Assembly (NCBI RefSeq): GCF_017309385.1
Contig: NZ_JAFJMJ010000003.1
Coordinates: 1,334,396 to 1,398,395 of the forward strand
Reading direction: 5' to 3'
Origin: Amycolatopsis sp. 195334CR
GTDB lineage: Bacteria > Actinomycetota > Actinomycetes > Mycobacteriales > Pseudonocardiaceae
Length of the DNA stretch: 64,000 nt
Of the stretch, positions 6,610 to 27,420 are shown one piece after another. Position 1 is the first letter of the stretch, and each line of letters opens with the position of its first letter. Under the pieces are notes generated by a model. The model had not been told where the DNA came from and made no database searches. It saw only the letters and a program-made list of their open reading frames with translations. The position numbers and the translations under genes were made by a program.

Positions 6610-6678
6610 GCAGGTGTGCTGTGAATGTGGCTTTCACTGCGGATTCCGCAGTGAAAGCCACATTCACAGCACACCTGC
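6610..6678. repeat. Palindrome family A, copy 1 (69 nt)
   Basis: This is a perfect 34-base inverted repeat around a single central T at 6644. Its outer arms begin GCAGGTGTGCTG and its core reads GAATGTGGCTTTCAC. It lies between the convergent RAM-protein and qcrB genes, beside a separate ordinary terminator (6690-6723). Three other copies with the same core occur at 16335, 25508 and 27368. A bidirectional terminator is the simplest role, but conservation of the core sequence suggests something more specific. Confidence 0.85.
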
Positions 6679-6689
6679 CGAACACGCGA

Positions 6690-6723
6690 AACGGGCCGCA
6701 CCCCCGAGGGGATGCGGCCCGTT
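6690..6723 (-). terminator. qcrB operon terminator hairpin
   Basis: The arms AACGGGCCGCA (6690-6700) and TGCGGCCCGTT (6713-6723) are exactly complementary, with further C/G pairing toward the loop. The hairpin lies 14 bases beyond the qcrB stop codon. There is no long U-tract, as is usual for high-GC actinobacterial terminators. Confidence 0.75.
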
Positions 6724-6737
6724 CGACGTAGCGAGCC

Positions 6738-8423
6738 CTAGTGGCCGCTGGTGATCTCCTTGCTCTCCTTGGTGGCGCCTTCGCCCACCGCGGAGGAGTC
6801 GACATCACCCGGGCCGTGCCCGTTGCCGTGGCCGTTGGCGCGGGCGCGATCGAGGGCGGCGGTCTCCTCCGCCGGGTCCGCGATCACCCAGCCACCGGGC
6901 ACCGCGCGCCCGGCCGAGCCCAGCTTGTTCATCTTCTTCGGCACGGACGCGCCCTGGTACTCCAGCGGCACCGCGTGCCCGTGGTCGTCCACCGGGCCCA
7001 GCGGCTGGTGGATCTCGATGAACTCACCGTGCGGCAGGCGCTTGATGATGCCCGTCTCGACCCCGTGCTCCAGCACCTCGCGGTCGCCGCGCTGCAGGCC
7101 GACGCAGATCCGGTAGGTGAGGTAGTACGCCAGCGGCGGCGCCAGCAGGATGCCGATCCGGCCCGCCCAGGTGGTCACGTTCAGCGAGATGTCGAACGTG
7201 AACGCGATGATGTCGTTGAACCCGGACATCATCAGCACCATGAAGAAGGTCAGCGCCATCACGCCGATGCTGGTGCGGACCGGGTTGTCCCGCGGCCGCT
7301 GCAGCAGGTTGTGGTGCGCGGTGTCGCCGGAGAGCTTCCGTTCGATCCACGGGTACGCCAGCAGCAGCCCGATCAGGATCGGCATGCCCAGCGCACCGAC
7401 GAAGAACACCGGCGGGATCGTGTAGTTCCCGAGGTAGAGCTCCCAGGCGGGCCAGATCCGGAGCATGCCGTCCGCCCAGGCCATGTACCAGTCCGGCTGC
7501 GAACCGGCGGACACCTGCGACGGGTTGTACGGGCCGATGTTCCAGATCGCGTTGATCTGGAAGATGCCCGACATGGCCGCGATGACCCCGGTGACCAGCG
7601 CGAAGAACGCCCCGCCCTTGAGCGCGAACACCGGCATGATGCGCACGCCGACGACGTTGGTCTCCTTGCGCCTCGGCCCGGGGAACTGCGTGTGCTTCTG
7701 GTACCAGACCAGCGCCAGGTGCGCGCCGACCAGCGCCAGCATGATGCCCGGGATGAGCAGGATGTGCAGCGTGTACAGCCGCGGGATGATCTCCGTCCCG
7801 GGGAACTCGCCACCGAAGAGCGCCCAGTGGACCCAGGTGCCCATCACCGGCACCGAGAGCACGATGCCGGACAGGGTGGCGCGGATACCGGTACCGGAGA
7901 GCAGGTCGTCCGGCAGCGAGTAGCCGAAGAAGCCCTCGAACATGCCCAGGACCAGCAGCAGCGCGCCGATCACCCAGTTCGCCTCACGCGGGCGCCGGAA
8001 CGCACCGGTGAAGAAGATCCGCATCATGTGCACGAACATCGCCGCGACGAAGATCAGCGCGGCCCAGTGGTGCAGCTGGCGGACGAACAACCCGCCCCGG
8101 ACCTCGAAGGTGATGTCCAGCGTGCTCGCGAACGCCTTGGACATCTCGACGCCCTGCAGGTTCTTGTAGGCGCCGTCGTAGATGACCTCCTGCATGGAGG
8201 GATCGAAGAACAGCGTCAGGTACACCCCGGAGATGATCAGGATGATGAAGCTGTACAGCGCGATCTCGCCGAGCAGGAAGGACCAGTGGGTGGGGAACAC
8301 CTTGTTCAGCTGGTGCCGCATGCCCTTGGCCAGGTGGTACCGGTCGTCGGCCCAGGTGGCACCGGCCGCGGCGGCCTTCTCGGCCGGGTTCGTCCCCTTT
8401 GTCGGGGTGGTCAGTGAACTCAT
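6738..8423 (-). CDS. qcrB: Cytochrome bcc complex, cytochrome b subunit
   Basis: This 561-residue integral membrane protein carries the two b haems and the quinol sites of the menaquinol:cytochrome c reductase, the target of anti-mycobacterial compounds such as Q203. Haem-ligand histidine pairs are seen in [20 protein letters not shown] and in [19 protein letters not shown]. The Qo motif is the actinobacterial PDWY (QPDWYMAW) instead of PEWY. A long hydrophilic C-terminus, after about residue 420, is also typical of actinobacteria. The ATG at 8423 overlaps the qcrA stop (ATGA); a possible ATG 15 bases earlier lies inside qcrA and is less likely. It is the last gene of ctaE-qcrC-qcrA-qcrB. Confidence 0.97.
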
Positions 8424-9568
8424 GACTTGCGCTCCCAAAACCCAGGACCGACTGCCTCGATGAAGTCACCTCTCGCAACGAAGTAGCCCTCTTCGTTCAC
8501 GGTAATGGGCAACTGGGCGAGTGCGCGAGTCGCCGGCCCGAAAACCGGCTTCGCGTAGTGCAGTGCGTCGAACTGCGACTGGTGACACGGGCAGAGGATC
8601 CGGTTGGTCCGCTGCTCGTACAGCGACGTGGGGCAACCCACGTGGCTGCAGATCTTCGTGTAGGCGTAGAAGTCGCCGAAGTTGAAGTCCTCCTGGCCCT
8701 CGCGCTTGACCACGCGCGCGGCGTCGGCCGGGCGCAGGCGGATCAGCATGACCGGGTTGTCGGACCGCTTCAGCGCCTTGGCCAGCAGCTCGTGGTTGCC
8801 GCGCTCGGACTCGCGGAACGGGAACACCGTCTCCATCGCGCCCGCCTCGAGGTCCTCCGGGCGCACCAGCGAGGGCTCCTCCGGCTCGTGGCCGAGGTGC
8901 GCGGTGTGCCGGCGCAGGTAGACGACCTCACCCGGGTAGTTCGGCTGCCAGCCGGTGTGCCACAGGGAGTCGCGGTTCTCGGTGTCCTTCCACGGGTCGC
9001 GGATGAACGACGCGAGCGGCAGCGCGACGGTGGCCAGGCCCAGCGCGCCGGCCCCGAGGCCGACGCTGCGCTTGATCGCCGAGCGGCGCGCGATGGTGCT
9101 GCGGTTGCCCGCGTCGGCCAGCTGGGCGACGATCGTCGCCTTGTCGACCTCCTTGGACCCGCCGTCCCCGCGCTCCTGCACCGCGATCTCGTCCGGGATG
9201 AACTTCTTGGTGTAGAGCAGGACGCCGACGGCCAGCGCGAGCACCGCGAGGCCGAGGGTGACGCCCAGCATCGGGGTGTACAGCGAGTACCAGAAGTGCC
9301 CGCTCTCGTTGTCCGGGCTCTCGTACTGCCACGGCCACCAGATCAGGGACACCACGAAGCCGAGCCCGGACAGCGCGGAGATCAGGAACCAGATGGCCAC
9401 CGAGCGCTCGGCGCGCTTCTCCGCCTTGGTGCCCTTGACCGGCCACTTGTCCTCGTAGTGGACCAGCTCGACGCCGTCCAGGTTGGTGCCCAGCTTCACC
9501 AGCTGGTCGCGGTCCATGTCCGCCAGTTCCGCCTCGGTCGGCGGCTTCGGCTCTTCGCCGCTACTCAT
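8420..9568 (-). CDS. qcrA: Cytochrome bcc complex, Rieske iron-sulfur subunit
   Basis: This 382-residue protein is the Rieske [2Fe-2S] subunit that passes electrons from menaquinol to the dihaem cytochrome QcrC. The cluster motifs CSHVGC and CPCHQSQ lie in the C-terminal third. Three hydrophobic segments precede the domain (around residues 57-78, 95-118 and 178-196), and the third follows a twin-arginine-like ARRSAIKRS, as in actinobacterial Rieske proteins that use both Sec and Tat insertion. It begins 3 bases after the qcrC stop and overlaps qcrB by 4 bases. Confidence 0.97.
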
Positions 9569-9571
9569 GCG

Positions 9572-10396
9572 CTAAGCCCTCGATCCAATCCAGAGGGTCA
9601 CACCGACCAGCGCGGCGATCCCCACAATCCACGCGATGACGCCTTCGGACGCCGGCCCGAACCCGTTCAGGCCGTTGCCGCCGGGGTTGTTGTTGCCGTC
9701 CGACACCGACTTGACGTACGCGATGATGTCCTTCTTCTCCTCCGGCGTGAGCTGCCGGTCGGAGAACTTCGGCATGTTCTGCGGGCCGGTGAGCATCGCG
9801 GTGTACAGCTGCTCCTCGGTGGCCGGGGCCAGCGGCGGGGCGTACTTGCCCTCCGACAGGGCGCCACCGGCACCGGTGAAGTTGTGGCACGAGGCGCAGT
9901 TCAGCCGGAACAGCTCGCCACCGCGGGCCGGGCTCTCCCCACGCAGCGCTTCGCCCTTCTCGCCGGGCCGCTGCGGACCGCCGCCGTTCGCCTGGATGTA
10001 GGCGCCCAGCGCGTCGATCTCCTCGGGGGTCAGCTTCGGCGGCTTGCGCGCGGCCTGGGCTTCCTGGCGCACGGCGGGCATGCGGCCGGAGGAGGTCTGG
10101 AAGTACACCGCGGCCTCGCCGATGCCGACCAGGGCCGGGCCCTTGTCCTGCACGCCTTCGAGGTTCGCGCCGTGGCAGGTGCTGCAGGTGTTGTTGTAGA
10201 TCTCCTCACCCTTGCGCAGCAGCGCGGGGTCGACCTGCGCCTGCGCGGTCTGGGGCTCGGGGGCGAACAGGGCGTACAGCCCGCCCGCGCTCAGCAGCGC
10301 GACGAAAAGCGCCAGAAGGCCGGCTACCCGCCGCTGGAACTTCGTGCGGCGCCGCCGTGGCTTCGTCGCCGAGGCGGGTTTCTTGCTGGTGGTCAT
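9572..10396 (-). CDS. qcrC: Cytochrome bcc complex, dihaem cytochrome c subunit
   Basis: This 274-residue protein is the membrane-anchored cytochrome cc that replaces soluble cytochrome c in actinobacteria and hands electrons directly to the aa3 oxidase. Two haem-binding sites are visible, CSTCH and CASCH, each in a separate cytochrome c domain. An N-terminal basic segment ([12 protein letters not shown]) and hydrophobic stretch form the first membrane anchor or signal, and a C-terminal segment ([19 protein letters not shown]) forms the second. The ATG at 10396 gives the expected basic N-terminus; the longer open frame upstream is spurious. It is followed at 3 bases by qcrA. Confidence 0.97.
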
Positions 10397-10440
10397 CTCT
10401 GCGGCAACCCTTGCTGTCAGTTCGGCCGGGACGGCTGGTC

Positions 10441-11067
10441 TCAGGGAACGATGTAGATCACCGCGAACAGGCCGATCCACACGATGTCGACGAAGTGCCA
10501 GTAGTACGACACCACGATCGCCGAGGTGGCCTGGGCCGGGGTGAACTTGCTCAGCCGGGTGCGGATGAGCAGGTACACGAACGCGATGAGCCCGCCGATC
10601 ACGTGCAGGCCGTGGAAGCCGGTGGTCAGGTAGAAGACCGTGCCGAACGCACCGGACGGGATGGTCACGCCCTCGTTGATCAGCTGGATGTACTCGTAAC
10701 CCTGACCGCCGACGAAGATCGCCCCCATCAGCAGGGTGATCAGGTACCACCGGCGAAGGCCGTAGACGTCACCCTTCTCAGCGGCGAACACGCCGAGCTG
10801 ACAGGTGAACGACGACGCCACCAGGATCACCGTGAACGGCAGCGCGTACGGCACATCGAGGTGGATCGGTTCGCCGGTCGACTCCAGGATCGGCGGCCAG
10901 TGGCCGCTCGAGTTCTGTGCCTTGACCGTGAAGAACATCGCGAACAGCCCAGCGAAGAACATGAGCTCGCTGGACAGCCAGACGATGGTGCCGACGCTGA
11001 CCATGTTGGGCCGGTTCAGCGAGTGCACGCGCTGGCTGATGGTGGGAGCCGTTGTCACGAGTCGCAT
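10441..11067 (-). CDS. ctaE: Cytochrome c oxidase subunit III
   Basis: This 208-residue membrane protein is subunit III of the aa3 cytochrome oxidase, with five predicted membrane segments and the conserved [11 protein letters not shown] and [14 protein letters not shown] segments. It heads the ctaE-qcrC-qcrA-qcrB operon, with 44 bases to qcrC. The ATG at 11067 begins [20 protein letters not shown], matching other actinobacterial CtaE proteins. The operon is divergent from the receiver-like gene and trpD. Subunit I (ctaD) is not in the window. Confidence 0.97.
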
Positions 11068-11221
11068 TATGTCCTCTCGCAACCACCGCCCGTCCCCCGG
11101 GTCTCCGGCGCGTCGCGGGCCGACTCGATCACACTCGCCGCCGCCCTGGTGCTGGGCGCGGGGGCACCGAGCGGATAGCATCGGCGCAGCCCGCTCCACT
11201 ACCAGGCCGGAGGCAGTTTTC

Positions 11222-11635
11222 ATGACCGAGTCGACCGCGAAGAAGATCCTGGTCTTCAGCCACCGCGCCGAGGTGCGCGAGTCGATCATCTCCGCCGTCG
11301 GCCGCCGCCCGGCCACCGATCTGGGCCGCGTCGACTACACCGAGGCGGGCACCGTGGCCGAGGTGCTGATGGCGATGGACGCGGGTGAGGCGGATCTCGC
11401 CATCCTCGACGGGGAGGCGCAGCCGACCGGCGGCATCGGCCTGACCAGGCAGCTGAAGAACGAGATCGCCGACTGCCCCCCGATCGTGGTCGCGGTCCGG
11501 CGCAAGGACGACCGCTGGCTGGCCACCTGGTCGCAGGCGGACGCCGTGCTGGTGCACCCGCTCGACCCGCTGACCGCCGCCGAGACCGTCGCCGAGGTCC
11601 TGCGCGCCACGCCGGTCCCGGCCGTCCGCGGCTGA
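11222..11635 (+). CDS. Degenerate response-regulator receiver domain protein
   Basis: This 137-residue protein has the length and fold pattern of a stand-alone CheY-like receiver domain, starting [16 protein letters not shown] and containing [21 protein letters not shown]. The usual phospho-acceptor Asp is kept (ILDGE), but the acidic pair after the first strand is replaced by Ser-His, and the conserved Lys before the last helix is replaced (HPLDPLT). It is therefore probably a pseudo-receiver that cannot be phosphorylated normally. It lies between divergent ctaE and trpD, only 8 bases before trpD, and is likely co-transcribed with it. Start ATG at 11222. Confidence 0.8.
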
Positions 11636-11643
11636 GGCCCGGC

Positions 11644-12681
<1,038 letters not shown>

Positions 12682-12698
12682 CCCCGCCGCGGCTCCCT

Positions 12699-12759
12699 GA
12701 ATGCTATGAGTGGGGCATTACTTGCGTTGATTGCAAGTAATGCCCCACTCATAGCATTC
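12699..12759. repeat. Palindrome family B, copy 1 (61 nt)
   Basis: Perfect 27-base arms (12699-12725 and 12733-12759) flank the 7-base loop GTTGATT. The core reads GAGTGGGGCATTACT. It sits 17 bases after the trpD stop, between convergent trpD and ctaF, beside a separate ctaF terminator. A second copy with a compensated base change occurs at 38637. Confidence 0.85.
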
Positions 12760-12783
12760 GGCGCCGGGCGCCGCTGGCACGCG

Positions 12784-12822
12784 GAACGGCCCGCCTCCCC
12801 GGTCAGGGGTGGCGGGCCGTTC
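12784..12822 (-). terminator. ctaF terminator hairpin
   Basis: The arms GAACGGCCCGCC (12784-12795) and GGCGGGCCGTTC (12811-12822) are exactly complementary around a 15-base loop that can itself pair in part. The hairpin is 12 bases beyond the ctaF stop and resembles the qcrB terminator in sequence (AACGG-CCGC arms). Confidence 0.75.
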
Positions 12823-12834
12823 GGCGAAAAGGGG

Positions 12835-13254: not shown

Positions 13255-13306
13255 GGGGCTTTCCTCACTCTGAGCTGCGGACTTCGGACTGCGGACCGGG
13301 CCGCGA

Positions 13307-14397: not shown

Positions 14398-16332
14398 GTG
14401 TGCGGCCTGCTCGGACTGGTGTGCGCCACTGAAGAAGACGCGGCGAAGGCACGGGACGCGGTGGGCGCGGCCCTGCGCTGCCAGCGGCATCGCGGTCCCG
14501 ACGAGACGGACACCTGGGCCGACGCCGAGGTGGTCTACGGGTTCAACCGGCTCGCCTTCATCGACCTCGAGCACTCCCACCAGCCCCTGACCTGGGGCCC
14601 GCCGGAGTCGCCCGGCCGGTACACGATGAACTTCAACGGCGAGATCTACAACTACCTCGAACTGCGTGAGACGCTCGCCACCGAGCACGGCGCGAAGTTC
14701 AACACCGAGGGTGACGGCGAGGCCATCGTGGCCGCCTACCACTTCCTCGGCCCGGACGCGGTCAAGAAGCTGCGCGGCATGTTCGCCTTCATGATCTGGG
14801 ACTCGCAGGAGAAGCTGGTCTACGGCGCGCGCGACCCGTTCGGCATCAAGCCGCTGTTCTACTCCGAGGGCCCCGGCGGCGTCGCGTTCTCCAGCGAGAA
14901 GAAGAGCCTGCTGGAGCTGTCGGACACCCTGGGGGTCAAGCAGCAGCTCGACCAGATCGCGCTGCAGCACTACCTGACCCTGCAGTACGTGCCCGAGCCC
15001 GAGTCGCTGCACCAGGGCGTGCGCCGGATCGAGTCGGGCACCTCGTTCACCGTCTCCCCCGGCGGCCAGGTCAAGACCGAGCGCTACTTCTTCCCCGAGT
15101 TCACCGCGAAGCCGGTCTCCGGGCCGAAGGGCTCCGAGGAGCTGTACGAGCGCATCTCGCAGGTCATGCAGGACTCGGTGGCCAAGCACATGATCGCCGA
15201 CCCGGACGTGACCGTGGGCGCGTTCCTCTCCGGCGGCATCGACTCCACCGCCACCGCGGCGCTGGCCAAGCGGCACAACCCGAACCTGATCGCGTTCACC
15301 ACCGGCTTCGAGCGCGAGGGCTACTCCGAGGTGGACGTGGCGGCCGAATCGGCCGAGGCGATCGGGGTCAAGCACGTCATCCGCACCGTCTCCAGCGACG
15401 AGATGATGGAGGCGCTGCCGCTGATCGTCTGGTACCTCGACGACCCGGTGGCCGACCCGGCGCTGGTGCCGCTGTGGTTCATCGCCCGCGAGGCCCGCAA
15501 GTACGTCAAGGCGGTGCTCTCCGGTGAGGGCTCCGACGAGCTGTTCGGCGGGTACACCATCTACCGCGAGCCGCTTTCGCTGGCGCGCTTCGAGAAGATG
15601 CCCGGAGCGGTGAAGAGCCTGCTGGGCAAGGTGTCCACCAAGATCCCGGAGGGCACCCGCGGCAAGGACCTGCTGCGGCGCGGTTCGTTGTCGCTGGAGG
15701 AGCGCTACTACGGCAACGCGCGCATCTTCCGCGAGGACCAGCTGCGCGGCGTGCTGCGCAACTTCACCGACGGCGTGGGGCACCAGGACGTCACCGAGCC
15801 GTGGTACCGGATCTCGCGGGACTGGGACCCGGTGGCGCGGATGCAGCACGTGGACCTGTTCACCTGGCTGCGCGGCGACATCCTGGTCAAGGCGGACAAG
15901 GTGACCATGGCGAACTCGCTGGAGCTGCGGGTGCCGTTCCTCGACGCCGAGGTGTTCAAGGTGGCCGCGAGCATCCCGCTCGAGGAGAAGATCACCCGCG
16001 AGACCACCAAGCACGCGCTGCGCCGCGCGCTGGACGGGATCGTGCCCGCGCACGTGCTGAACCGGCGCAAGCTGGGCTTCCCGGTGCCGATCCGGCACTG
16101 GCTGCGCACCGACATGTACGACTGGGCGCGCGGCATCGTCTCGGACTCGAAGACCGAGGAGCTGTTCGACAAGGCGGCCGTGCTGCGGATGCTCGAGGAG
16201 CACAAGGCGGGCACGCTGGACCACAGCCGCCGGATCTGGGCGCTGGTGGTCTTCATGATCTGGCACGGCATCTTCGTGGAGAACCGGATCAAGCCGGAGA
16301 TCCCCGAGCCGGTCTACCCGGTCAAGCTCTGA
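14398..16332 (+). CDS. asnB: Asparagine synthetase (glutamine-hydrolysing)
   Basis: This 644-residue enzyme makes asparagine from aspartate, glutamine and ATP. The start is GTG at 14398, immediately followed by TGC, so the catalytic Cys becomes N-terminal after methionine removal (CGLLGLV). The N-terminal half is the glutaminase domain (FNGEIYNY, RDPFGIKPL), and the C-terminal half is the synthetase with PP-loop FLSGGIDST near residue 278 and GEGSDELFGGY. The conserved location beside ctaC recalls M. tuberculosis Rv2201. It could equally serve amidation of cell-wall precursors, as some actinobacterial AsnB proteins do; the sequence alone does not decide. Confidence 0.95.
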   Translation: MCGLLGLVCATEEDAAKARDAVGAALRCQRHRGPDETDTWADAEVVYGFNRLAFIDLEHSHQPLTWGPPESPGRYTMNFNGEIYNYLELRETLATEHGAKFNTEGDGEAIVAAYHFLGPDAVKKLRGMFAFMIWDSQEKLVYGARDPFGIKPLFYSEGPGGVAFSSEKKSLLELSDTLGVKQQLDQIALQHYLTLQYVPEPESLHQGVRRIESGTSFTVSPGGQVKTERYFFPEFTAKPVSGPKGSEELYERISQVMQDSVAKHMIADPDVTVGAFLSGGIDSTATAALAKRHNPNLIAFTTGFEREGYSEVDVAAESAEAIGVKHVIRTVSSDEMMEALPLIVWYLDDPVADPALVPLWFIAREARKYVKAVLSGEGSDELFGGYTIYREPLSLARFEKMPGAVKSLLGKVSTKIPEGTRGKDLLRRGSLSLEERYYGNARIFREDQLRGVLRNFTDGVGHQDVTEPWYRISRDWDPVARMQHVDLFTWLRGDILVKADKVTMANSLELRVPFLDAEVFKVAASIPLEEKITRETTKHALRRALDGIVPAHVLNRRKLGFPVPIRHWLRTDMYDWARGIVSDSKTEELFDKAAVLRMLEEHKAGTLDHSRRIWALVVFMIWHGIFVENRIKPEIPEPVYPVKL

Positions 16333-16334
16333 TC

Positions 16335-16387
16335 GCGGTGAATGTGGCTTTCACTGCGCCTGGCGCTGTGAAAGCCACATTCACCGC
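16335..16387. repeat. Palindrome family A, copy 2 (53 nt)
   Basis: The arms GCGGTGAATGTGGCTTTCAC and its complement enclose GCGCC-T-GGCGC, with one T-T mismatch between stem blocks. It begins 3 bases after the asnB stop and ends 7 bases before the stop of the convergent SnoaL-like gene. No other terminator is seen in this gap, so here it probably terminates both genes. Confidence 0.85.
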
Positions 16388-16393: not shown

Positions 16394-16786
16394 TCAGGCG
16401 GCGAGCTGGGCCCGCAGGGCTTCGGCGTCGTGCACGGCCGACAGGTGCAGGAACTTCCCGTCGCGGATCCGGTAGATCGCGTACTCGACGATCTCGATCG
16501 GCCGGCCGGTCGGAGCGACGCCCAGCCACTCCTTGACCGGCGTGCCGGTGTTCTTCAGCCGGACCGCGAGGCTGTCCCCGTTGACGGCGATTTCCTGTGT
16601 CTCCCAACGGAAGTCGGGCACCGCGTCGGTGATGCTGTGCAGTTGCGCCACCATTTCCGCCCGCGAACTCGGCTCGCTGTGCAGGACGATCGACTCGTGC
16701 ACGAACTCGTCCATGCGGTCGAACTCGTGGGCGTTGAGGGCCTCGAGGTAGCGCTCGTAGAACTCACGCGGGTTCTTCTCGGTCAT
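16394..16786 (-). CDS. SnoaL-like / ester cyclase (NTF2-fold) protein
   Basis: This is a 130-residue NTF2-fold protein of the SnoaL-like polyketide cyclase/ester cyclase group: FYERYLEALNAHEFDRMDEFVHESIVLHS at the start and VEYAIYRIRDGKFLHLSAVHDAEAL at the end. Such proteins are small catalytic or ligand-binding cones, and many have no known reaction. The ATG at 16786 is preferred over a TTG four codons upstream. It stands 64 bases beyond the substrate-binding protein gene on the same strand and may be the last gene of that operon. Confidence 0.75.
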   Translation of the reverse strand: MTEKNPREFYERYLEALNAHEFDRMDEFVHESIVLHSEPSSRAEMVAQLHSITDAVPDFRWETQEIAVNGDSLAVRLKNTGTPVKEWLGVAPTGRPIEIVEYAIYRIRDGKFLHLSAVHDAEALRAQLAA

Positions 16787-16850
16787 GACCGGCACCAACC
16801 CCGGCCCGCCGAGTTCTATTCCGATCGGTACAGATTTATTCGCAGGTCCG

Positions 16851-19490: not shown

Positions 19491-19496
19491 CTCCGG

Positions 19497-20431: not shown

Positions 20432-20688
20432 TTTTCTGGTGCGTCACCCGGATTGTCTGCGCCGCGTTGCTGCATTCGGGGCGCGCTCTGCGTGATACGA
20501 CTCACCGGTGATCCCCCTTTCCGCAGTTCGGCGGAAAACCGGTGGATTAACGCTTGTTCAAGACCGAGTATCGTCACCGGCGGCTGATCAACGGCCGATC
20601 CGCCCACCCCCCACCGGGAAATCCGACCGGCGCGCGTCATCGTGCGAGCCGGTCGTTCGCGCGCGTCCACAACACGCCAGGAGGCACG

Positions 20689-21354
20689 GTGAAGCACGTA
20701 CTCGACCACCAGCGGAGTTCGGTCTCGTCCGGTTGCGCGGTCAACCGGCACTTCTGGCGCGGCGCCTGGCTCGATGAGGACGAAGTGGACAGACGCATCG
20801 GCGCGCTCGGCCCGACCGCGCGCGGGGTACTGGACGGCACGCGGCTCAACCCGCTCGTGGTGATCGCCGCCTGTGGGCGGCTGCGGGCCCTGCTGAACGC
20901 CCCGCGCACCGAACTGCGCGGGCGGCTGACCGATCGGCTGCGGGCGCGCGGGGTCAGCGGCGCCAAGATCGACCGGGTGTTCACCGGCCTGCTCACCGCG
21001 CTGCCGCGGCTCACGCACACCGGTTTCCGAAGCCGCGCAACCGAAGCGCGGCTGCACACGCACATCGTCGCGGGCAGCGAACCGGCCGTCGGCGCGCTGA
21101 GCGCGGTGGAAGGCCTGCTGTCCGGTGACTTCAACGTGGTGAAGACCAGCCGGGACGATTCGCTGTTCACCGCCGAACTGCTCGCCGGGCTGGCCGCGCA
21201 GGACGTCACCGGGCAGATCGCCGCACGCGTGGTGGTACTGCGTTTTTCCGCGGTGGAGCGCCGCGACTGGATGGCCCAGATCTGCGATCCGGCCGACACC
21301 GTCGCCGTGTGCGGGCCGAAATCCCGCCACGCCGGCGCGGCGACCTGGAACTGA
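20689..21354 (+). CDS. Truncated LuxC-like acyl-CoA reductase (N-terminal part only)
   Basis: This 221-residue protein begins at a GTG with GGAGG close upstream. Its segments NRHFWRGAWLDEDEVDRRI, VEGLLSGDFNVVKTSRDDSLF and MAQICDPADTVAVCGPKS resemble the N-terminal half of LuxC/acyl-CoA reductases, which make fatty aldehydes from acyl-CoA or acyl-enzyme. Those proteins are normally over 400 residues, and the catalytic Cys lies in the missing half. The frame stops just before a terminator hairpin, and no second half is seen downstream. It is probably a remnant, or a protein with a changed role. The family call is from recognition of motifs and is moderate. Confidence 0.5.
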   Translation: MKHVLDHQRSSVSSGCAVNRHFWRGAWLDEDEVDRRIGALGPTARGVLDGTRLNPLVVIAACGRLRALLNAPRTELRGRLTDRLRARGVSGAKIDRVFTGLLTALPRLTHTGFRSRATEARLHTHIVAGSEPAVGALSAVEGLLSGDFNVVKTSRDDSLFTAELLAGLAAQDVTGQIAARVVVLRFSAVERRDWMAQICDPADTVAVCGPKSRHAGAATWN

Positions 21355-21367
21355 TCCACAAAGGACA

Positions 21368-21398
21368 GTGGGGCACCACCCGCCGGGTGATGCCCCAC
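21368..21398. terminator. Bidirectional terminator hairpin
   Basis: The arms GTGGGGCACCACCC (21368-21381) and GGGTGATGCCCCAC (21385-21398) pair with one mismatch around a 3-base loop. It lies between the convergent LuxC-like and adenosine-kinase-like genes, 8 bases from the latter's stop. Confidence 0.75.
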
Positions 21399-21406
21399 CG
21401 GGAAGC

Positions 21407-22393
21407 TCAGGGCAGGATGCGCGCGATGTCCTCGGCCGCTTCGGGGCCGAAGGCCTCGGAAATGCGGGCCAGCGCGCTCTTCGCCTCGAAAAGCCATTCC
21501 TGCGTGCCGACGGTCTCCAGCACCAGCACCGCGATCAGCGAACCCAGCTGCGCGGATCGCTCCAGCGTGAGACCACCGTTCAACCCGGCCAGGAAACCGG
21601 CGCGGAAGCCGTCGCCGACGCCGGTCGGGTCGGCCTTCGTCAGTTCCGGCACGGCGGGGACCTGGAGGTTCGTCCCGTCCGCGCCGACGATTTCGACGCC
21701 CTTCTCGCCCAGCGTGGTGATCCGCAGGCCGACGCGGCTGAGCACGTCCGCCTCGGTCCAGCCGGTCTTCTGCAGCAGCAACTCCCACTCGTAGTCGTTG
21801 CTGAACAGGTACTTCGCGCCGTCGATGAAGTCGCGCACCTGCGCGCCCTCCATCCGCGCCAGCTGCTGCGACGGGTCCACCGCGAACGCGTACCCGCGCT
21901 GGCGGCACTCCTGGGCGTGGCGCAGCATGCCGTCCGGGTCGTCCGGGCTGAGCAGGGTCAGCGACAGCCCGCCGACGCGGTCGGCGATCGGGGCCAGTTC
22001 GATGTTGCGGGACTCGGCCATCGCGCCGGCGTAGAACGTGGCGATCTGGCAGAGGTCGTCGTCGGTGGTGCAGACGAAGCGGGCCGTGTGGGCCACTTCG
22101 GACACGTGCACGCCGGCGGTGTCCACACCGTGCCGTTCGAGCCAGGAGCGGTAGTCGGCGAAGTCCGCGCCGACCGAGCCGACCAGCACCGGCTGGACGC
22201 CGAGCACACCGAGGCCGAAGGCGATGTTCGCGCCGATCCCGCCCCGCCGGACGATCAGGTCGTCGGCGAGGAAGCTCAGGGAAACCCGGTGCAGTTGCTC
22301 GGCCACGAGCTGCTCGGCGAACCTCCCCGGGAAGTGCATCAAATGGTCCGTCGCGATGCTGCCGGATACCGCTATCCGCGCCGTGGCTGCCAC
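21407..22393 (-). CDS. adoK: PfkB family carbohydrate (adenosine-type) kinase
   Basis: This 328-residue kinase of the PfkB/ribokinase fold corresponds in context and length to the M. tuberculosis adenosine kinase Rv2202c. The N-terminal GGIGANIAFGLGVLG motif binds the sugar, and the C-terminal DPTGVGDGFRAGFLAGL holds the catalytic Asp and anion hole. GTG start at 22393 is preceded by AAGGAGAACC. It may phosphorylate adenosine or another nucleoside or sugar; substrate assignment rests on synteny. It is a single gene between two terminators. Confidence 0.85.
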   Translation of the reverse strand: MAATARIAVSGSIATDHLMHFPGRFAEQLVAEQLHRVSLSFLADDLIVRRGGIGANIAFGLGVLGVQPVLVGSVGADFADYRSWLERHGVDTAGVHVSEVAHTARFVCTTDDDLCQIATFYAGAMAESRNIELAPIADRVGGLSLTLLSPDDPDGMLRHAQECRQRGYAFAVDPSQQLARMEGAQVRDFIDGAKYLFSNDYEWELLLQKTGWTEADVLSRVGLRITTLGEKGVEIVGADGTNLQVPAVPELTKADPTGVGDGFRAGFLAGLNGGLTLERSAQLGSLIAVLVLETVGTQEWLFEAKSALARISEAFGPEAAEDIARILP

Positions 22394-22541
22394 CGGTTCT
22401 CCTTGTTCGGGTCGGTCAGGCGGTCTGGGGGCCCGAAGTTACCGCCCGGTCATGCCCCATCCGGGTGCTTCGGGCACACCCGGCCGACATTACCGCCTGG
22501 TACCGGTGTTCGAATCCGCCGAGCGCGCATACGTTCGGCCT

Positions 22542-22715
22542 GTGCGTACCACTACCGAACCCGAGACCATCGGCGAACTCATCGCCGACTGCGCCGACCT
22601 GCCCGAACAGCTGCACGCCTGCGCGAGCGCGCCCGCCGCGCCGAAGGCGGCGGCGAGCTGGACGGTGGACGAGCGCTGCCACGCCCAGGTCGCCGAACTG
22701 GACGTTTACGTGTGA
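22542..22715 (+). CDS. Small hypothetical protein (57 residues)
   Basis: A short frame from GTG 22542 to TGA 22715 reads RTTTEPETIGELIADCADLPEQ at the start, with Ala-rich and acidic content and two Cys. Codon use is typical of the genome (nearly all G/C third bases). It runs divergently from the kinase gene and ends just before a strong bidirectional terminator, which supports real transcription. No family was recognised. It could be a leader-type or small regulatory protein, or not translated at all. Confidence 0.4.
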   Translation: MRTTTEPETIGELIADCADLPEQLHACASAPAAPKAAASWTVDERCHAQVAELDVYV

Positions 22716-22727
22716 GCTGAAACACAG

Positions 22728-22765
22728 AAAAAAAAGCGGGGCCGGAATGATCCGGCCCCGCTTTT
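22728..22765. terminator. Strong bidirectional Rho-independent terminator
   Basis: The arms AAAAGCGGGGCCGGA (22732-22746) and TCCGGCCCCGCTTTT (22751-22765) pair exactly around ATGA. An eight-A run on the left gives a U-tract for leftward transcripts and TTTT serves rightward ones. It separates the small frame from the convergent HesB/ErpA gene. Confidence 0.9.
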
Positions 22766-22785
22766 CCACGTTCTGGCGCGGTGGC

Positions 22786-23160
22786 TCAGTGGAACGAGTC
22801 ACCACACGCGCAGGACCCGGTGGCCTGCGGGTTGTCGATGGTGAAACCCTGCTTCTCGATGCTGTCGACGAAGTCGATCACGGCCTCGGAGACGTACGGC
22901 GCGCTCATCCGGTCCACCGCCACGCGGAGGCCGTCGAAGTCGCGGAAGAGGTCACCGTCGAGGGTGCGCTCGTCGAAGAACAGCTGGTAGCGCAGGCCGG
23001 CGCAGCCACCGGGCTGGACGGCGATGCGCAGGTGCATGTCGTCGCGGCCCTCCTGCTCGAGCAGGGCTTTGGCCTTGGCGGCCGCGGCGTCGGTCAGGGT
23101 CACGCCGTGGGTGGCCTCGGCGGCCTCCGTCTGGCCACCGGTCTGCTCAGCGGTCGTCAT
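22786..23160 (-). CDS. HesB/ErpA/IscA-type iron-sulfur cluster carrier
   Basis: This 124-residue A-type carrier delivers Fe-S clusters to apo-enzymes. The three conserved cysteines are present at 53 (PGGCAGLRY) and 117/119 (GSCACGDSF at the C-terminus). An extra Thr/Ala-rich N-terminal 15 residues precede the domain. It corresponds to Rv2204c. Likely clients include the Rieske protein and the Fe-S-dependent lipoyl synthase encoded in this window, though that is inference. The ATG at 23160 is the clear start. Confidence 0.93.
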   Translation of the reverse strand: MTTAEQTGGQTEAAEATHGVTLTDAAAAKAKALLEQEGRDDMHLRIAVQPGGCAGLRYQLFFDERTLDGDLFRDFDGLRVAVDRMSAPYVSEAVIDFVDSIEKQGFTIDNPQATGSCACGDSFH

Positions 23161-23318
23161 GACTCTCCCTCGTGGGTCCAACGGTGGGCAGGAATACCCC
23201 GTTACCGAGGTCAACAAGCTCGCTGCCCGTTCTGTTCCACGCCCTTGGCGCATCTCCATGGTGACACATCTCCTGACCGGCTGAACGGCGGCGGCCAGGC
23301 CTGCAATACCCTGGCGAG

Positions 23319-23969
23319 GTGAGGTTCCTGCGCCGTAACAGCACTACAGCCACCGATACGCCCGATGAGGACGCACCGGAGGTCGCCGACGCCGTCGACT
23401 CGGCCAAGGGGTTCACCCCGAGCAAGGGCCGAGCCACGCCCAAGCGGCGGGAGGCCGAGGCCAAGCGCCGGGGGCCGGTGGCGCCGCCGCCGAAGACCAT
23501 GCGCGAGGCGATGAAGCGGAACAAGGAACTCCGCAAGCAGAACCCGGTCAGCAAGGAGGACCGGCGCGCCGCCGCCAAGGAGCGCCGCGACCGGATGAAC
23601 GCCGGGGACGACAAGTACCTGCTCCCGCGCGACCGCGGGCCGGTCAAGGCGTACGTGCGCGACCTGGTCGACGCCAAGCGGAACCTGCTCGGCCTGTTCA
23701 TGCCGCTGGCGCTGCTGGTCTTCGTGGCGCTGCTGGTGCCGAACGTGGACATCCAGCGGTACGCCACCCTGCTGTGCACGGTGATGCTGCTGGGCATGGT
23801 GGTCGAGGGCTACTTCAACGGCCGCCGCGTGGCGAAGGCGGTGCGGGAGAAGTTCCCGAAGGAGGAGATCAAGGGCCGCTCGGTCGGCTGGTACGCGTTC
23901 ATCCGCGCCAGCCAGATCCGCAAGCTGCGCGTGCCCAAGCCCCGCGTCCGCCCCGGCGACGCGGTCTGA
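23319..23969 (+). CDS. DUF3043 membrane protein
   Basis: This 216-residue protein matches the actinobacterial DUF3043 family (Rv2206 in M. tuberculosis). A long, highly basic cytoplasmic N-terminus (residues 1-115, rich in Lys and Arg, with KGRATPKRREAEAKRRGP) precedes two membrane segments (LLGLFMPLALLVFVALLV and a second near ATLLCTVMLLGMVV), and the C-terminus is basic again (EEIKGRSVGWYAFIRASQIRKLR). No biochemical role is known to me. It is divergent from the HesB/ErpA gene and starts at GTG 23319. Confidence 0.88.
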   Translation: MRFLRRNSTTATDTPDEDAPEVADAVDSAKGFTPSKGRATPKRREAEAKRRGPVAPPPKTMREAMKRNKELRKQNPVSKEDRRAAAKERRDRMNAGDDKYLLPRDRGPVKAYVRDLVDAKRNLLGLFMPLALLVFVALLVPNVDIQRYATLLCTVMLLGMVVEGYFNGRRVAKAVREKFPKEEIKGRSVGWYAFIRASQIRKLRVPKPRVRPGDAV

Positions 23970-23995
23970 TCCTCGCCCCGGCGCTGGGAAACCGG

Positions 23996-24055
23996 CTAGA
24001 CTGGCGATGCCTGAAAGATCTTCGCACTGCTCGTCATATGGGGGCAGTGAGAAGA
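23996..24055 (+). other. Intergenic promoter-like element and hairpin, possible small RNA
   Basis: The 288-base gap 23970-24257 holds no clear gene except this feature. TAGACT at 23996-24001 resembles the TAGRCT -10 motifs seen elsewhere here. It is followed by an 11-of-12 stem formed by TCTTCGCACTGC (24019-24030) and GCAGTGAGAAGA (24044-24055) around a 13-base loop with ATATG. Further GC-rich self-complementary sequence extends to about 24110. It could be a 5' leader of the small membrane protein gene or a small RNA; no known riboswitch class was recognised. Confidence 0.35.
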
Positions 24056-24257
24056 GCCACCGCTTCCGCGAGGAGGCGGCACACCCGCGGGGCTTCGCGC
24101 CTCGCGGGCCAGTGGTTCGCCTGGCCGCCTGACCGCGGCCACCCGAGGCCGGGCCGCTGCGCGCCGATTTTCACCGGTCGGCCTGGCCAGGCATCCACTG
24201 CCAGCCTCACCGGCCGGTGAGCACGCCTCGGGACTCGTCCGGCGGCAAGGGTTGGTC

Positions 24258-24479
24258 GTGCCAGCGGCTTCGTGGCTCGTTGACGTACTGAAGCTCACCC
24301 CGATCGCGGCGTTCGCCGTGTTGTTGCTCCCGCACCTGACCGGCCTGGTGTTCTACGGGCTGTTCCTGTGGCGTGCGGTGCCCGGGTGGGAGTTCTCCTA
24401 CGAAGCGTTCGGGGTGAAGCTGCGCTGCGGTCCCCTCGATACCCCGGACGAGGAGCCTGGAGCGGCTCCAGGTCGTTAG
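24258..24479 (+). CDS. Small membrane protein (73 residues)
   Basis: A short frame beginning at GTG 24258 (a TTG two codons earlier is possible) encodes PAASWLVDVLKLTPIAAFA and a hydrophobic stretch (IAAFAVLLLPHLTGLVFYGLFLW) followed by a hydrophilic, acidic tail. One or two membrane segments are likely. Codon use is largely typical. It lies 33 bases before the aldo/keto reductase gene on the same strand. I recognise no family. Confidence 0.5.
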   Translation: MPAASWLVDVLKLTPIAAFAVLLLPHLTGLVFYGLFLWRAVPGWEFSYEAFGVKLRCGPLDTPDEEPGAAPGR

Positions 24480-24512
24480 CTAGGCGAACGAGTACCGGCT
24501 AGGCTCGGCACC

Positions 24513-25502
24513 ATGGAGTTTCGTCGCCTCGGCCGCAGTGGCCTGAACATCAGTGAGATCTCGTACGGCAACTGGCTCACCCACGGCTCGCAGGTGGAAG
24601 AGGACCAGGCGCAGGCCTGCATCAAGGCCGCGCTCGACGCCGGCATCACCACCTTCGACACCGCCGACGTCTACGCCAACACCGCCGCCGAGTCCGTGCT
24701 CGGCCGCGGCCTGGCCGGGCAGCGCCGCGAGAGCCTGGAGATCTTCACCAAGGTCTTCTGGCCGACCGGCCCCAAGGGCCCCAACGACAAGGGCCTCGGC
24801 CGCAAGCACATCATCGAGTCGGCCAACGCCTCGCTGAAGCGCCTCGGCACCGACTACGTCGACCTCTACCAGGCCCACCGGTTCGACCGCACGGTGCCGC
24901 TGGAGGAGACCTTCCTCGCCTTCGCCGACCTGGTCCGCCAGGGCAAGGTGCTCTACGTCGGCGTCTCCGAGTGGAGCGCCGAGGAGATCACCCGCGGTGC
25001 CGCGATCGCGCGTGAGCTGAAGGTGCCGTTCATCTCGAACCAGCCGCAGTACAACGCGCTGTGGCGGGTGATCGAGGCGCAGGTCGTCCCGGCCTCCGAG
25101 CGCGAAGGGCTCAGCCAGATCGTCTGGTCGCCGATCGCGCAGGGCGTGCTGACCGGCAAGTACAAGCCGGGCCAGCCGCTGCCCGAGGGCTCGCGCGCCA
25201 CCGACGAGAAGGGTGGCGCGAACTTCGTCCAGCGCTACCTGAACGACGACGTGCTGACCCGCGTGCAGAAGCTGGAGCCGCTGGCCGCCGAGGCCGGGCT
25301 GTCGCTGGCGCAGCTGGCGGTGGCCTGGGTGCTGCAGAACCCGAACGTGGCCTCGGCCATCATCGGCGCCTCGCGCCCGGAGCAGGTGCACGAGAACGTC
25401 AAGGCGGCGGGCGTGAAGCTCGACGCGGACCTGCTCACCAAGATCGACGACATCCTCGACGGTGTCATCGAGCGCGACCCGTCGCTGACGAAGTCGCCGT
25501 GA
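24513..25502 (+). CDS. Aldo/keto reductase
   Basis: This 329-residue NADPH-dependent oxidoreductase belongs to the voltage-gated potassium-channel beta-subunit-like branch of the aldo/keto reductases. It starts MEFRRLGRSGLNISEISYGNW; the catalytic Asp and Tyr are in FDTADVYAN, with Lys in EIFTKVFW and His in YQAHRFD. The cofactor-binding SPIAQGVLTGKYKPG and ASRPEQVHENVKA segments are intact. The physiological carbonyl substrate is unknown. ATG start at 24513; a TAGGCT -10-like motif lies 13 bases upstream, so the transcript may be nearly leaderless. Confidence 0.92.
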   Translation: MEFRRLGRSGLNISEISYGNWLTHGSQVEEDQAQACIKAALDAGITTFDTADVYANTAAESVLGRGLAGQRRESLEIFTKVFWPTGPKGPNDKGLGRKHIIESANASLKRLGTDYVDLYQAHRFDRTVPLEETFLAFADLVRQGKVLYVGVSEWSAEEITRGAAIARELKVPFISNQPQYNALWRVIEAQVVPASEREGLSQIVWSPIAQGVLTGKYKPGQPLPEGSRATDEKGGANFVQRYLNDDVLTRVQKLEPLAAEAGLSLAQLAVAWVLQNPNVASAIIGASRPEQVHENVKAAGVKLDADLLTKIDDILDGVIERDPSLTKSP

Positions 25503-25507
25503 CCCAC

Positions 25508-25560
25508 GCTGTGAATGTGGCTTTCACTGCACTTTTCGCTGTGAAAGCCACATTCACGGC
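25508..25560. repeat. Palindrome family A, copy 3 (53 nt)
   Basis: The stem is built from GTGAATGTGGCTTTCAC and its exact complement, with a wobble-compatible T/G position just outside, a T-T mismatch, a short inner GC pair and the loop ACTTTTC. It starts 6 bases after the aldo/keto reductase stop. The right arm overlaps the end of the convergent ispD-like gene and supplies its TGA stop (25554-25556). Confidence 0.85.
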
Positions 25561-26249
25561 AGGCCGGTCTCGCGGAGCAGGTGCTCCACCACGCGCAGGT
25601 CGTGCGGGTAGGTCACCTTCAGGTTCCGCTCCTCCCCCGGCACCCAGTGCACCGGCAGCGACGAGAAGCGCTCCATGCAGGAGGCGGTGTCGGTGCCGAT
25701 GAAGCCTTCGCGGTCGGCCTGCTCGTAGGCGGCCAGCAGCGGTCCGGCCAGGAACCCTTGCGGCGTCTGGACTCGCACCGCGCCGTCGAGGGCGCCGCCG
25801 TAGCCGGTGCCGTCCTCGGTGGCGATCACCACGTCGTCGGCGGCCAGGCCCGGGACGGCGCCGCCGAACTCGCGTGCGGCCTTCAGCACCGCGGTGATCA
25901 GGCCATCCGAAGCCAGCGGGCGCGCGCCGTCGTGGATCAGCACGGTGTCCACCTCACCGGCGTCGATGCGGGTCGCGAGGTGCCGCAGGGCGCACAGTTC
26001 GGAGCCCTGCCTACTGGCGCCGCCGTGCACCAGATCCACGTCGAGGTCGCCGACGACCTCGCGGGCGAACTCCTCGTCCTCCGGGCGGATCACCAGCACC
26101 AGCACGCCGAACTCCGGGAGCCGCGCGAAGGCGTCGAGGGACCAGCGGACCAGCCGCCGCCCGGCCAGCGGCAGGTACACCTTGTTCAACTCGGCCCCGA
26201 CACGACTGCCGGAGCCGCTCGCCAGCACCACACCCGCCGCGGTCGTCAC
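25554..26249 (-). CDS. ispD: IspD-family nucleotidyltransferase
   Basis: This 231-residue protein belongs to the IspD/TarI cytidylyltransferase family. IspD makes CDP-methylerythritol for isoprenoid synthesis. The nucleotide-binding LASGSGSRVG is present, followed by a conserved Lys (NKVYLPL), and the IHDGARPL, VQTPQGF and GTDTASCMER motifs match the family. Identity is somewhat divergent (the usual PKxFxxL reads NKVYLPL), so a second IspD-like protein acting on another substrate is possible. GTG at 26249 is taken as start; an ATG four codons earlier (26261) is also possible. The stop lies inside palindrome copy 3. Confidence 0.75.
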   Translation of the reverse strand: MTTAAGVVLASGSGSRVGAELNKVYLPLAGRRLVRWSLDAFARLPEFGVLVLVIRPEDEEFAREVVGDLDVDLVHGGASRQGSELCALRHLATRIDAGEVDTVLIHDGARPLASDGLITAVLKAAREFGGAVPGLAADDVVIATEDGTGYGGALDGAVRVQTPQGFLAGPLLAAYEQADREGFIGTDTASCMERFSSLPVHWVPGEERNLKVTYPHDLRVVEHLLRETGLP

Positions 26250-26307
26250 GGCGGAAAGCATAAGAGGGCGCGCCGTCCGGGGCCTCCAAGGGCGGTAGCG
26301 TGATCTC

Positions 26308-27360
26308 GTGGACGCCGCCGACTTCCCCGAACTTCCCCTGCCGGACGAGATCGCCCGCGCGGAAGCCCAACGCCTCACCGGAACCCTGATCACCCCGAAC
26401 GGCTCGCTGGGCAGGCTCGAAGAGCTCGGCGCCTGGGTGGCCGCCTGCCAGGGTCAGTCCCCGCCGCGGCCGTTCGCGCGGCCGCGCGTGGTGGTCTTCG
26501 CCGGTGACCACGGCATCGCCGCGAAGGGGGTTTCGGCCCATGCCGCCGAGGTGACCGGACAGCTCGTCGGGGCCACGCTCACCGGCGGCGCCCCGCTGAA
26601 CGTGCTGGCGCTGGCCGCCGGCGCGACCGTGCGCGTGGTGGACCTGGCGGTCGACCGCGAGGGGTCCGCGACGCCGGAGGCCGCCGAGCTGAAGGTGCGC
26701 CGCGGCTCGGGGTCGATCGACCACGAGGACTCGCTGACCGACGAAGAGGTGCGCGCCGCGCTCCAGGCCGGGCGCACGGTCGCCGACGCCGAGGTGGACA
26801 GCGGTGCCGACCTGCTCGTCGCCGGGGAGATCGGGGTCGCCAGCAGCACGCCGGCCTCGGTGCTGGTGGCCGCGCTGACCGGCGCCGAACCGGTCGCCGT
26901 GGTGGGCCGCGGCTCCGGCATCGACGACAACGCGTGGATGCGCAAGGCGGTCGCCATCCGCGACGGGCTGCGGCGGGCGCGGGCCGTGCTGGCCGACCCC
27001 GTCGCGTTGCTGCGCACCACCGCGGGCGCGGACATCGCCGCGATCACCGGCTTCCTCGCCCAGGCCGCGGTGCGCCGGACGCCGGTCCTGCTGGACGGGC
27101 TGGTGGTCGGTGCCGCGGCACTGGTCGCGGAGGAACTGGCGCCGGGCGCGCGGAACTGGTGGGTGGCCGCGCACCGGTCGAGCGAGCCGGCGCACGCGAT
27201 GGTGCTGGAACACCTGGACCTGGCGCCGATCCTGGACCTGGACCTGCGCATCGGCGGCGGCAGCGGGGCGGCCACCGCCCTGCCGCTGCTCACCATGGCG
27301 GCGCGGGTGCTGGCCGAGACGAGCACCTACGAACAATCCGGCGTCACCCCGCCTCAGTGA
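26308..27360 (+). CDS. cobT: CobT-like nicotinate-nucleotide-dimethylbenzimidazole phosphoribosyltransferase
   Basis: This 350-residue protein resembles CobT, which activates the lower-ligand base of cobalamin. Conserved segments are ITPNGSLGRLEELG, VVVFAGDHGIAAKGVS, AGEIGVASSTPAS and VGRGSGIDD. The C-terminal motif, usually containing a Gly-Glu-Gly with the catalytic Glu, reads RIGGGSGAATALPL, so that Glu appears to be missing. Neither cobS nor cobU is adjacent, although cobS follows in mycobacteria. The fold assignment is strong; whether it catalyses the classical reaction is open. GTG start at 26308, divergent from ispD. Confidence 0.85.
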   Translation: MDAADFPELPLPDEIARAEAQRLTGTLITPNGSLGRLEELGAWVAACQGQSPPRPFARPRVVVFAGDHGIAAKGVSAHAAEVTGQLVGATLTGGAPLNVLALAAGATVRVVDLAVDREGSATPEAAELKVRRGSGSIDHEDSLTDEEVRAALQAGRTVADAEVDSGADLLVAGEIGVASSTPASVLVAALTGAEPVAVVGRGSGIDDNAWMRKAVAIRDGLRRARAVLADPVALLRTTAGADIAAITGFLAQAAVRRTPVLLDGLVVGAAALVAEELAPGARNWWVAAHRSSEPAHAMVLEHLDLAPILDLDLRIGGGSGAATALPLLTMAARVLAETSTYEQSGVTPPQ

Positions 27361-27367
27361 CCCCGAC

Positions 27368-27420
27368 GTCACGAATGTGGCTTTCGAGACGCCTGGCGTC
27401 TCGAAAGCCACATTCGTGAC
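27368..27420. repeat. Palindrome family A, copy 4 (53 nt)
   Basis: This is a perfect 26-base inverted repeat around a central T at 27394. The arms start GTCACGAATGTGGCTTTCGA. Compared with the other copies, several stem bases differ and every change is matched on the opposite arm. It lies between the convergent cobT and ilvE stops (8 and 5 bases away) and is the only terminator-like structure there. Confidence 0.87.

Follow-up and report, generated by a model that had tools for sequence, protein, structure and literature searches.

Among the small palindromic repeats of bacterial genomes, bacterial interspersed mosaic elements (BIMEs) are inverted doublets of repetitive extragenic palindromes (REPs) that are mobilised by REP-associated tyrosine transposases (RAYTs). 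Intrinsic terminators, including those formed from inverted uptake sequences, place a hairpin after the stop codon, often between convergent genes, and may carry a paired inverted word, and the small dispersed repeats of cyanobacteria and the palindromic elements of Rickettsia are likewise very small, dispersed and hairpin-forming, with no transposase known. As described in the sections consulted here, the commonest inter-REP spacings in strain SBW25 are 71 and 110 bp (PMC3116915), the distance within dimers of tagged REPs is variable, and REPs with a CGTC tag likewise have no dedicated transposase (PMC3733652). In this work we describe a family of palindromic elements, encountered in a 64,000-nucleotide stretch of Amycolatopsis sp. 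195334CR (contig NZ_JAFJMJ010000003.1, positions 1,334,396 to 1,398,395; hereafter the window), which resemble such doublets. A sequence-only reading of the window had reported four of them; their two-unit anatomy, the 30-bp spacing of the units and the lineage-specific words are new beyond it.

The family is far larger than the four copies from which it was recognised. The word GAATGTGGCTTTC followed by its reverse complement within 1 to 30 nt occurs 126 times in the window's genome (G000, 9.93 Mb), with no match for a reversed control. The core alone is found at 317 exact sites and at 392 with up to one mismatch, a count from which sites with more than one mismatch are excluded, and about 65 of the 317 stand without an exact partner. 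The anatomy was studied in 864 kb of this genome, comprising the window, 31 stretches that were selected for their exact copies and 9 contiguous stretches beside the window, which together hold 62 distinct elements; the unselected part of this sample amounts to 244 kb and 11 elements. Sixty elements of standard length align without gaps over 53 columns and share one layout of 53 nt in total, namely a unit, a short centre that makes the central stem, and an inverted unit, with the centres of the two mini-palindromes 30 bp apart. Each unit, GCnGTGAA-TGTGGCT-TTCACnGC, is an imperfect palindrome in its own right with a 3-nt loop. Exact core pairs 25-35 nt apart are inverted in one sense in 58 cases, direct in 2 and inverted in the opposite sense in none, and 57 of the inverted pairs lie at 30 nt and one at 32. 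Six exact cores stand outside inverted pairs in the 864 kb; four of these make up two direct pairs, and all six lie outside genes. Complementarity drops sharply beyond 53 nt, with extra pairs in 4 of the 60 copies (8 in copy 1 of the window, 5 in three others), and both cores are perfect in 9 of the 11 unselected elements. Separately, three cores of the same orientation lie 106 bp apart at 482538-482762 of C1 in this genome and could represent a tandem repeat.

Across the 60 aligned elements the core hardly varies and the pairs flanking it covary. At columns 3:51 all four Watson-Crick types occur, with both sides changed in 26 of the 56 distinct rows, and columns 21:33 are unpaired in 18 of the 56. 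The long hairpin has a covariation score of 0.229, as compared with 0.098 for shuffles and at most 0.045 for slid versions, and the two mini-hairpins, at 0.186, score below it. Pairing of N1 with N4 is seen in 46 of 60 elements (17.3 expected) and of N1 with N2 in 28 of 60 (19.6 expected). A mini-hairpin replacing the long hairpin was considered and rejected, the N1:N2 pairing being the weaker. An inherited subtype, GTCAC/GAGAC, accounts for 10 of the 60 rows, copy 4 of the window included, and contributes to the scores of both the long hairpin and the mini-hairpins.

The position of the elements relative to genes, as called by a codon-usage gene caller written for this analysis, is strongly biased. 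Among the 62 elements, 44 lie in convergent gaps, 16 in tandem gaps, 2 in divergent gaps and none within genes, and convergent gaps make up 13.3% of the non-element intergenic bases (binomial p 4e-25). The same holds in the unselected 244 kb, where 10 of the 11 elements are convergent as against 9.0% of bases (p 3.5e-10). Tandem copies are closer to the 3' end of the upstream gene in 15 of 16 cases, the median distance to gene 3' ends is 16 nt (n=104), and at 11 of the 104 adjacent 3' ends the element's own TGA is the stop codon. With a strong fold defined as z below -2.5 in 100-nt windows against 20 mononucleotide shuffles, 33 of the 34 element-bearing convergent gaps of this genome that passed the length filters fold strongly, compared with 22 of 101 of its convergent gaps without an element, 10 of 32 convergent gaps in the nearest relative (G004) and 4 of 80 random windows.

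G004 is 92% identical to the window's genome over one 4-kb region, and its orthologous sites reveal a rapid turnover. The comparison took in the elements of a 34-piece probe together with copies 3 and 4 of the window, and at the 27 scoreable sites, classed by eye, G004 has a full pair at 4, one of which is degenerate; another 2 hold a lone unit, and the other 21 lack both forms. Four sites were not scoreable, their right flank not being found (L055:10287, L063:10718, L066:18721 and L074:9242), and five elements of the probe yielded no fetched locus (L047:1643, L053:15496, L058:15766, L061:2872 and L076:9816). In G004 the flanking genes end directly against each other, or almost so, at several of the compared sites. 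Substitute hairpins were expected at the empty sites, but 15 of the 18 tested (11 convergent, 6 tandem, 1 divergent) have no strong one and 3 fold strongly; the empty sites W27373, L084:1369 and L068:9784 stood outside this test. The gap of copy 4 contains some hairpin in 28 of the 29 other species recovered from 59 searched (19 long palindromes and 9 G+C-rich hairpins, judged by eye). In the copy-3 gap, also judged by eye, one of the 11 other species recovered has a long palindrome (L037) and one a single unit. The copy-4 gap had suggested conservation by position, an idea abandoned in the light of G004 and the copy-3 gap.

The layout extends well beyond this species, with other unit words. 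In a survey of 60 genomes drawn from the larger genus, the exact GAATGTGGCTTTC pair recurs among the 59 others in G004 only, with 10 copies, and a compensated variant, GAAGG/CCTTC, is present in 4 of the 60 (27 in G041, 7 in G000, 6 in G004 and 3 in G015). A generic pattern, TGAANGNNNCNTT, then 5 to 30 nt, then AANGNNNCNTTCA, which by its permitted gaps counts two-unit elements and not solely those with 30-bp spacing, matches in 58 of the 60 genomes, of which 43 have 10 or more matches, to a maximum of 505; six of the 58 have one match each, maybe by chance. The pattern misses words that lack TGAA/TTCA, so that G041 has 15 matches by the pattern and 27 by its own word. In the wider family it is found in 57 of 150 genomes and 26 of 46 genera, and at the level of the order in 19 of 200 genomes, 6 of which are outside the family. 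These six, among 171 genomes outside the family, comprise four with single chance-like matches, G342 with 4, of which three have the 30-bp layout, and G226 with 11. The reversed control gives 0 or 1 in most genomes, the exceptions being G011 (23), G056 (12), G081 (12), G319 (6) and G344 (2); the matches in G011, G056 and G081 perhaps belong to another palindrome family with a mirrored stem sequence.

A search of a named collection with a stricter pattern matched at least 120 stretches, and the 80 rows among the matches listed all carry names that we take to be Pseudonocardiaceae. Among these listed matches, the word of Amycolatopsis rhizosphaerae is nearly always AAGGGTCCCTT, that of Prauserella and A. 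suaedae is AAGGCCACCTT, that of A. roodepoortensis, A. keratiniphila and their kin is AAGGCCCCCTT, and that of Kutzneria viridogrisea is AAGGTGGCTTT. Since related species share words, the words are lineage marks rather than strictly species marks.

Words vary by lineage, yet the spacing is largely retained. A scan for long palindromes covered 75-80 kb in each of twelve species and 240 kb of G004, beside the 244 kb of G000, and of the 131 unmasked long palindromes 85 are convergent, 34 tandem, 4 divergent, 5 in genes and 3 at stretch ends. Palindromes of 42 nt or longer, 143 in number, from the scanned stretches and 28 further loci were grouped into 30 clusters. With each cluster represented once, 13 of the 21 testable clusters have their strongest signal of a mini-palindrome with a 3-nt loop at 15.0 nt from the axis, the next best position having 5. 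Perfect-unit pairs 11-95 nt apart number 226 in 17 genomes, with 112 at 30 nt, 45 at 60 and 31 at 90, that is, 188 of the 226 at one of these three distances; 30-nt pairs are found in 11 of the 17 genomes, and 52 of 76 pairs lie at 30 nt when two genomes with arrays, sampled in stretches selected for matches, are left aside. No unit pair 11-80 nt apart lies inside a gene. The two array genomes, G186 and G202 (L178-L191), contain tandem runs in which the units recur exactly every 30 bp and a second small palindrome lies halfway between them; the runs are placed in convergent and tandem gaps barring one array at a stretch end. A different array, of TGAACGGTCCGTTCA units spaced some 23 and 31 nt apart, is present in G132 (L196) at about 8550-9260.

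With moderate confidence, we read the family as REPIN/BIME-like dispersed palindromes (REPINs being REP doublets forming hairpins) that would be spread by some machinery other than the known RAYT, are kept at gene 3' ends and probably serve as bidirectional hairpin terminators; from sequence we infer both this function and the mobility. The elements would be copied entire to other places in the genome, and copies landing just behind stop codons would be tolerated. In the transcript the long hairpin would stop or trim transcripts arriving from both sides, and a sequence-specific agent, whether the apparatus that copies the elements or a protein that binds them, may hold the core near-invariant while the flank pairs drift together. 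Bidirectional termination or 3'-end trimming is likely because the hairpins lie directly behind stop codons on both sides. Moreover, the near-invariant core beside matched, drifting flanks, together with a 30-bp spacing that persists through changes of word, suggests that something reads both sequence and spacing. More tentatively, one could envisage a Pseudonocardiaceae system without a RAYT, in which a lineage-specific factor would read the unit word and a 30-bp ruler, copy the element to gene ends and keep the word uniform, giving rise to dialects, the lattice having expanded into 30-bp arrays in some lineages.

Several observations weigh against the reading as dispersed hairpin terminators. 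No mobilising enzyme was found in a search that covered PF01797 only. No excised form was seen, and the empty sites whose sequences were inspected show no consistent target-site duplication, one of the marks of a miniature inverted-repeat transposable element (MITE), the one 4-nt direct repeat at the empty site L083:16141 being maybe due to chance. The empty sites come from one relative with no outgroup, so gain in G000 is not distinguished from loss in G004. Two of the 62 copies sit in divergent gaps, and a T-tract beyond the hairpin (at least 4 T in 8 nt) is found at 1 of 104 incoming gene ends; the elements have the hairpin just after the stop codon that is typical of terminators and lack the T-tract. 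The covariation at columns 2, 4, 5, 19, 20 and 22 comes largely from the one inherited subtype, and the 60 aligned elements were found through a low-mismatch core, 31 of the 41 stretches having been chosen by exact copies. As for the spacing, the 30 clusters are mutually related and include coding and ordinary hairpins, G000 and G004 contribute no perfect-unit pairs, their own unit being mismatched, and G132 and G011 were dropped from that count. The 30-nt spacing is not universal, as unit steps in G132 are 31, 62 and 23 nt, and 18 of 39 pairs in G186 and 11 of 21 in G202 have directly repeated loops, and full matching of the long hairpin is consequently not conserved in those two genomes.

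The rivals to be weighed are not mutually exclusive. The elements could be sites at the DNA level for a dimeric protein that reads the mini-palindromes 30 bp, or about three helical turns, apart, serving as roadblocks, insulators or nucleoid sites with the hairpin secondary. Such a protein would account for a spacing retained though words change, for the 30-bp-period arrays of G186 and G202 with their freely oriented loops, and for the 317 exact cores among the 392 sites with at most one mismatch. However, flank covariation is stronger over the long hairpin than over the mini-hairpins (0.229 and 0.186; 26 of 56 rows at 3:51), exact core pairs are nearly all of one inverted sense, and no protein candidate was found in a search limited to PF01797, and we consider this explanation rather unlikely. 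Matched arms might also arise by replication template switching in quasi-palindromes or by gene conversion, and not by structural selection, as correction of this kind would make arms match. The private extra arms of 4 of the 60 copies, 8 bp long in copy 1 and 5 bp in three further copies, speak for it, but it leaves unexplained a near-invariant core by variable matched flanks, the 3'-end bias and the mismatches at 21:33, which makes it unlikely.

Ordinary bidirectional terminators selected in place, with the similarity of copies due to homogenisation only, would explain the convergent and 3'-end bias as well as the hairpin of some kind in the copy-4 gap of 28 of the 29 other species recovered. 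A terminator role conserved by position is weakened, with 21 of the 27 scoreable G004 sites empty and 3 of the 18 tested among them folding strongly. The absence of a T-tract speaks against terminators fixed in place as well, hairpin stability leaves the unit layout unexplained, and the copy-3 gap, with a long palindrome in 1 of 11 other species, lowered slightly the weight of an explanation that we regard as improbable. An inverted signal of the DNA-uptake type, as in Neisseria, whose paired form is also a terminator, would share with the family a short fixed word, an inverted pair at gene ends and lineage dialects. Yet a word of this kind would be expected as single copies within genes, and the 864 kb contain 6 exact cores that stand apart from inverted pairs, not one of them genic, which makes such a signal very improbable.

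In the window itself, core matches with up to two mismatches number 9 as against 0.60 expected, none of 100 shuffles reaching 9, and 8 of them are exact cores, all inside the four palindromes. Copy 1 (6610-6678) consists of the 53-nt element at 6618-6670 with 8 extra, copy-specific base pairs per side; its unit 1 (6618-6640) is a mini-palindrome with the core at 6623-6635, and unit 2 (6648-6670) is inverted, with the core at 6653-6665, 30 bp from unit 1. It lies between the converging genes 6314-6592 (+) and 6738-8423 (-), whose ends are at 6592 and 6738, with an ordinary G+C-rich hairpin adjoining at 6690-6723. Copy 2 (16335-16387, a 53-nt element) lies between 14398-16332 (+) and 16394-16795 (-), with gene ends at 16332 and 16394, and the counterpart site in G004 has a palindrome of a different word. 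In copy 3 (25508-25560), between 24513-25502 (+) and 25554-26249 (-), with ends at 25502 and 25554, the minus-strand gene uses the TGA of the element as its stop codon, and the G004 site holds a single unit. Copy 4 (27368-27420), of the GTCAC/GAGAC subtype, lies between 26308-27360 (+) and 27426-28529 (-), with ends at 27360 and 27426, and its G004 site is without a long palindrome. The arms are perfect in copy 1 (34 bp, about one T) and in copy 4 (26 bp); copies 2 and 3 are imperfect, being identical to their reverse complements at 50 and 42 of 53 positions, and in the transcript the four copies would form hairpins of 22-33 base pairs. The sole match in the window to Rfam at gathering thresholds is a 5S ribosomal RNA, at 63901-64000 and truncated by the window end, and copy 1 has no match among plasmid records.

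Much of what the sequence-only reading had put forward is borne out by these data. All four palindromes are present where it placed them and with the core it gave, copies 1 and 4 are indeed the two perfect ones (arms of 34 and 26 bp about a central T), all four lie between convergent genes by our gene caller, and the terminator-like hairpin it had noted beside copy 1 is the one at 6690-6723. The matched change it saw next to the core of copy 4 proves to be a subtype common to 10 of the 60 aligned elements. It had named three outcomes that would speak against it, namely an absence of further copies in the genome, arms that vary without compensation and copies placed at random relative to gene ends; in fact more copies exist, and the family of 126 exact paired copies shows that its extent was understated, the arms covary, and the gene context is far from random. 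Its suggestion of a dispersed REP-like element at gene ends finds support, as does its view that more than simple recent copying is at work, given the near-invariant core and the covarying flank pairs. The REP-type transposase for which it proposed to look did not materialise, no PF01797 domain being found in this genome or in the 23 further genus genomes searched.

A second family, B, is built on the word GAGTGGGGCATTACT and has 63 exact paired copies in the window's genome and none in the 59 other genus genomes. Its two copies in the window, at 12699-12759 in a convergent gap and at 38637-38697 in a tandem gap, have the 30-bp unit layout, and its centre, ACTTGC...GCAAGT, recurs in relatives beside other unit words. 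A further hairpin, AACGCGAAAA...TTTTCGCGTT, at L078:5052 of G000 has a closely similar counterpart at L168:16000 of G004 that differs in the stem.

With at least 10 two-unit pattern matches in 43 of the 60 sampled members of a large genus, and up to 505, the elements pose the question of what copies and reads a palindrome pair of fixed spacing without a RAYT. Related species, in which the same gene ends have other words or none, offer a natural experiment. If the elements do stop transcription, they could supply compact bidirectional terminators for actinomycete work.

How, then, do these elements compare with the systems already described? No earlier description was found in the literature searched, as judged by titles and the openings of abstracts; in the text available, A. 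mediterranei is named once, in a satellite table (PMC6749651), six actinobacterial names looked for in the main text of PMC3733652 do not occur there, nor do four group names in that of PMC13155455. The domain PF01797 (Y1_Tnp; RAYT and IS200-type transposases), the one enzyme family searched, matched 0 of 24 genus genomes, G000 among them, and 2 of 40 relatives overall, both of other families, with a positive control in 5 of 14 genomes. No conserved GTAG or CGTC tag lies beside the units of the aligned G000 elements.

Cyanobacterial repeats and Rickettsia palindromic elements differ from the family in hosts and anatomy, and we know of no 30-bp unit spacing in these or in the hairpin repeats of sponge mitochondria. 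The sponge mitochondrial elements, in the part of their description used here (PMC2800124), are likewise very small, dispersed and hairpin-forming, in other hosts and with another anatomy. Intrinsic terminators with inverted uptake sequences, as outlined in a passage citing them (PMC2267715), share the post-stop hairpin and the paired inverted word; unlike them, the present elements have no T-tract, a rapid turnover of sites and, among those examined, no single words inside genes. GTAG- and CGTC-tagged REPs, as far as the sections consulted describe them (PMC3733652), also form dimers downstream of genes in convergent and unidirectional gaps, but with a tag that is lacking here. In anatomy the family resembles BIMEs and REPINs, the latter having, in the portion of the source drawn on (PMC3116915), two inverted conserved units at fixed spacing, extragenic and hairpin-forming, with compensatory changes and with singlets present. 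Unlike REPINs, the present elements have centres 30 bp apart, units that are mini-palindromes with a 3-nt loop, and 30-bp-period arrays in relatives, and unlike RAYT-mobilised REPINs they occur without a Y1_Tnp domain in the 24 genus genomes. Two defining traits of REPIN/REP-RAYT systems, the RAYT (sought as PF01797) and the GTAG/CGTC tag, are missing and the inverted extragenic doublet of constant spacing is present; overall, the family agrees with dispersed elements of the REPIN/BIME type in its anatomy, position and turnover.

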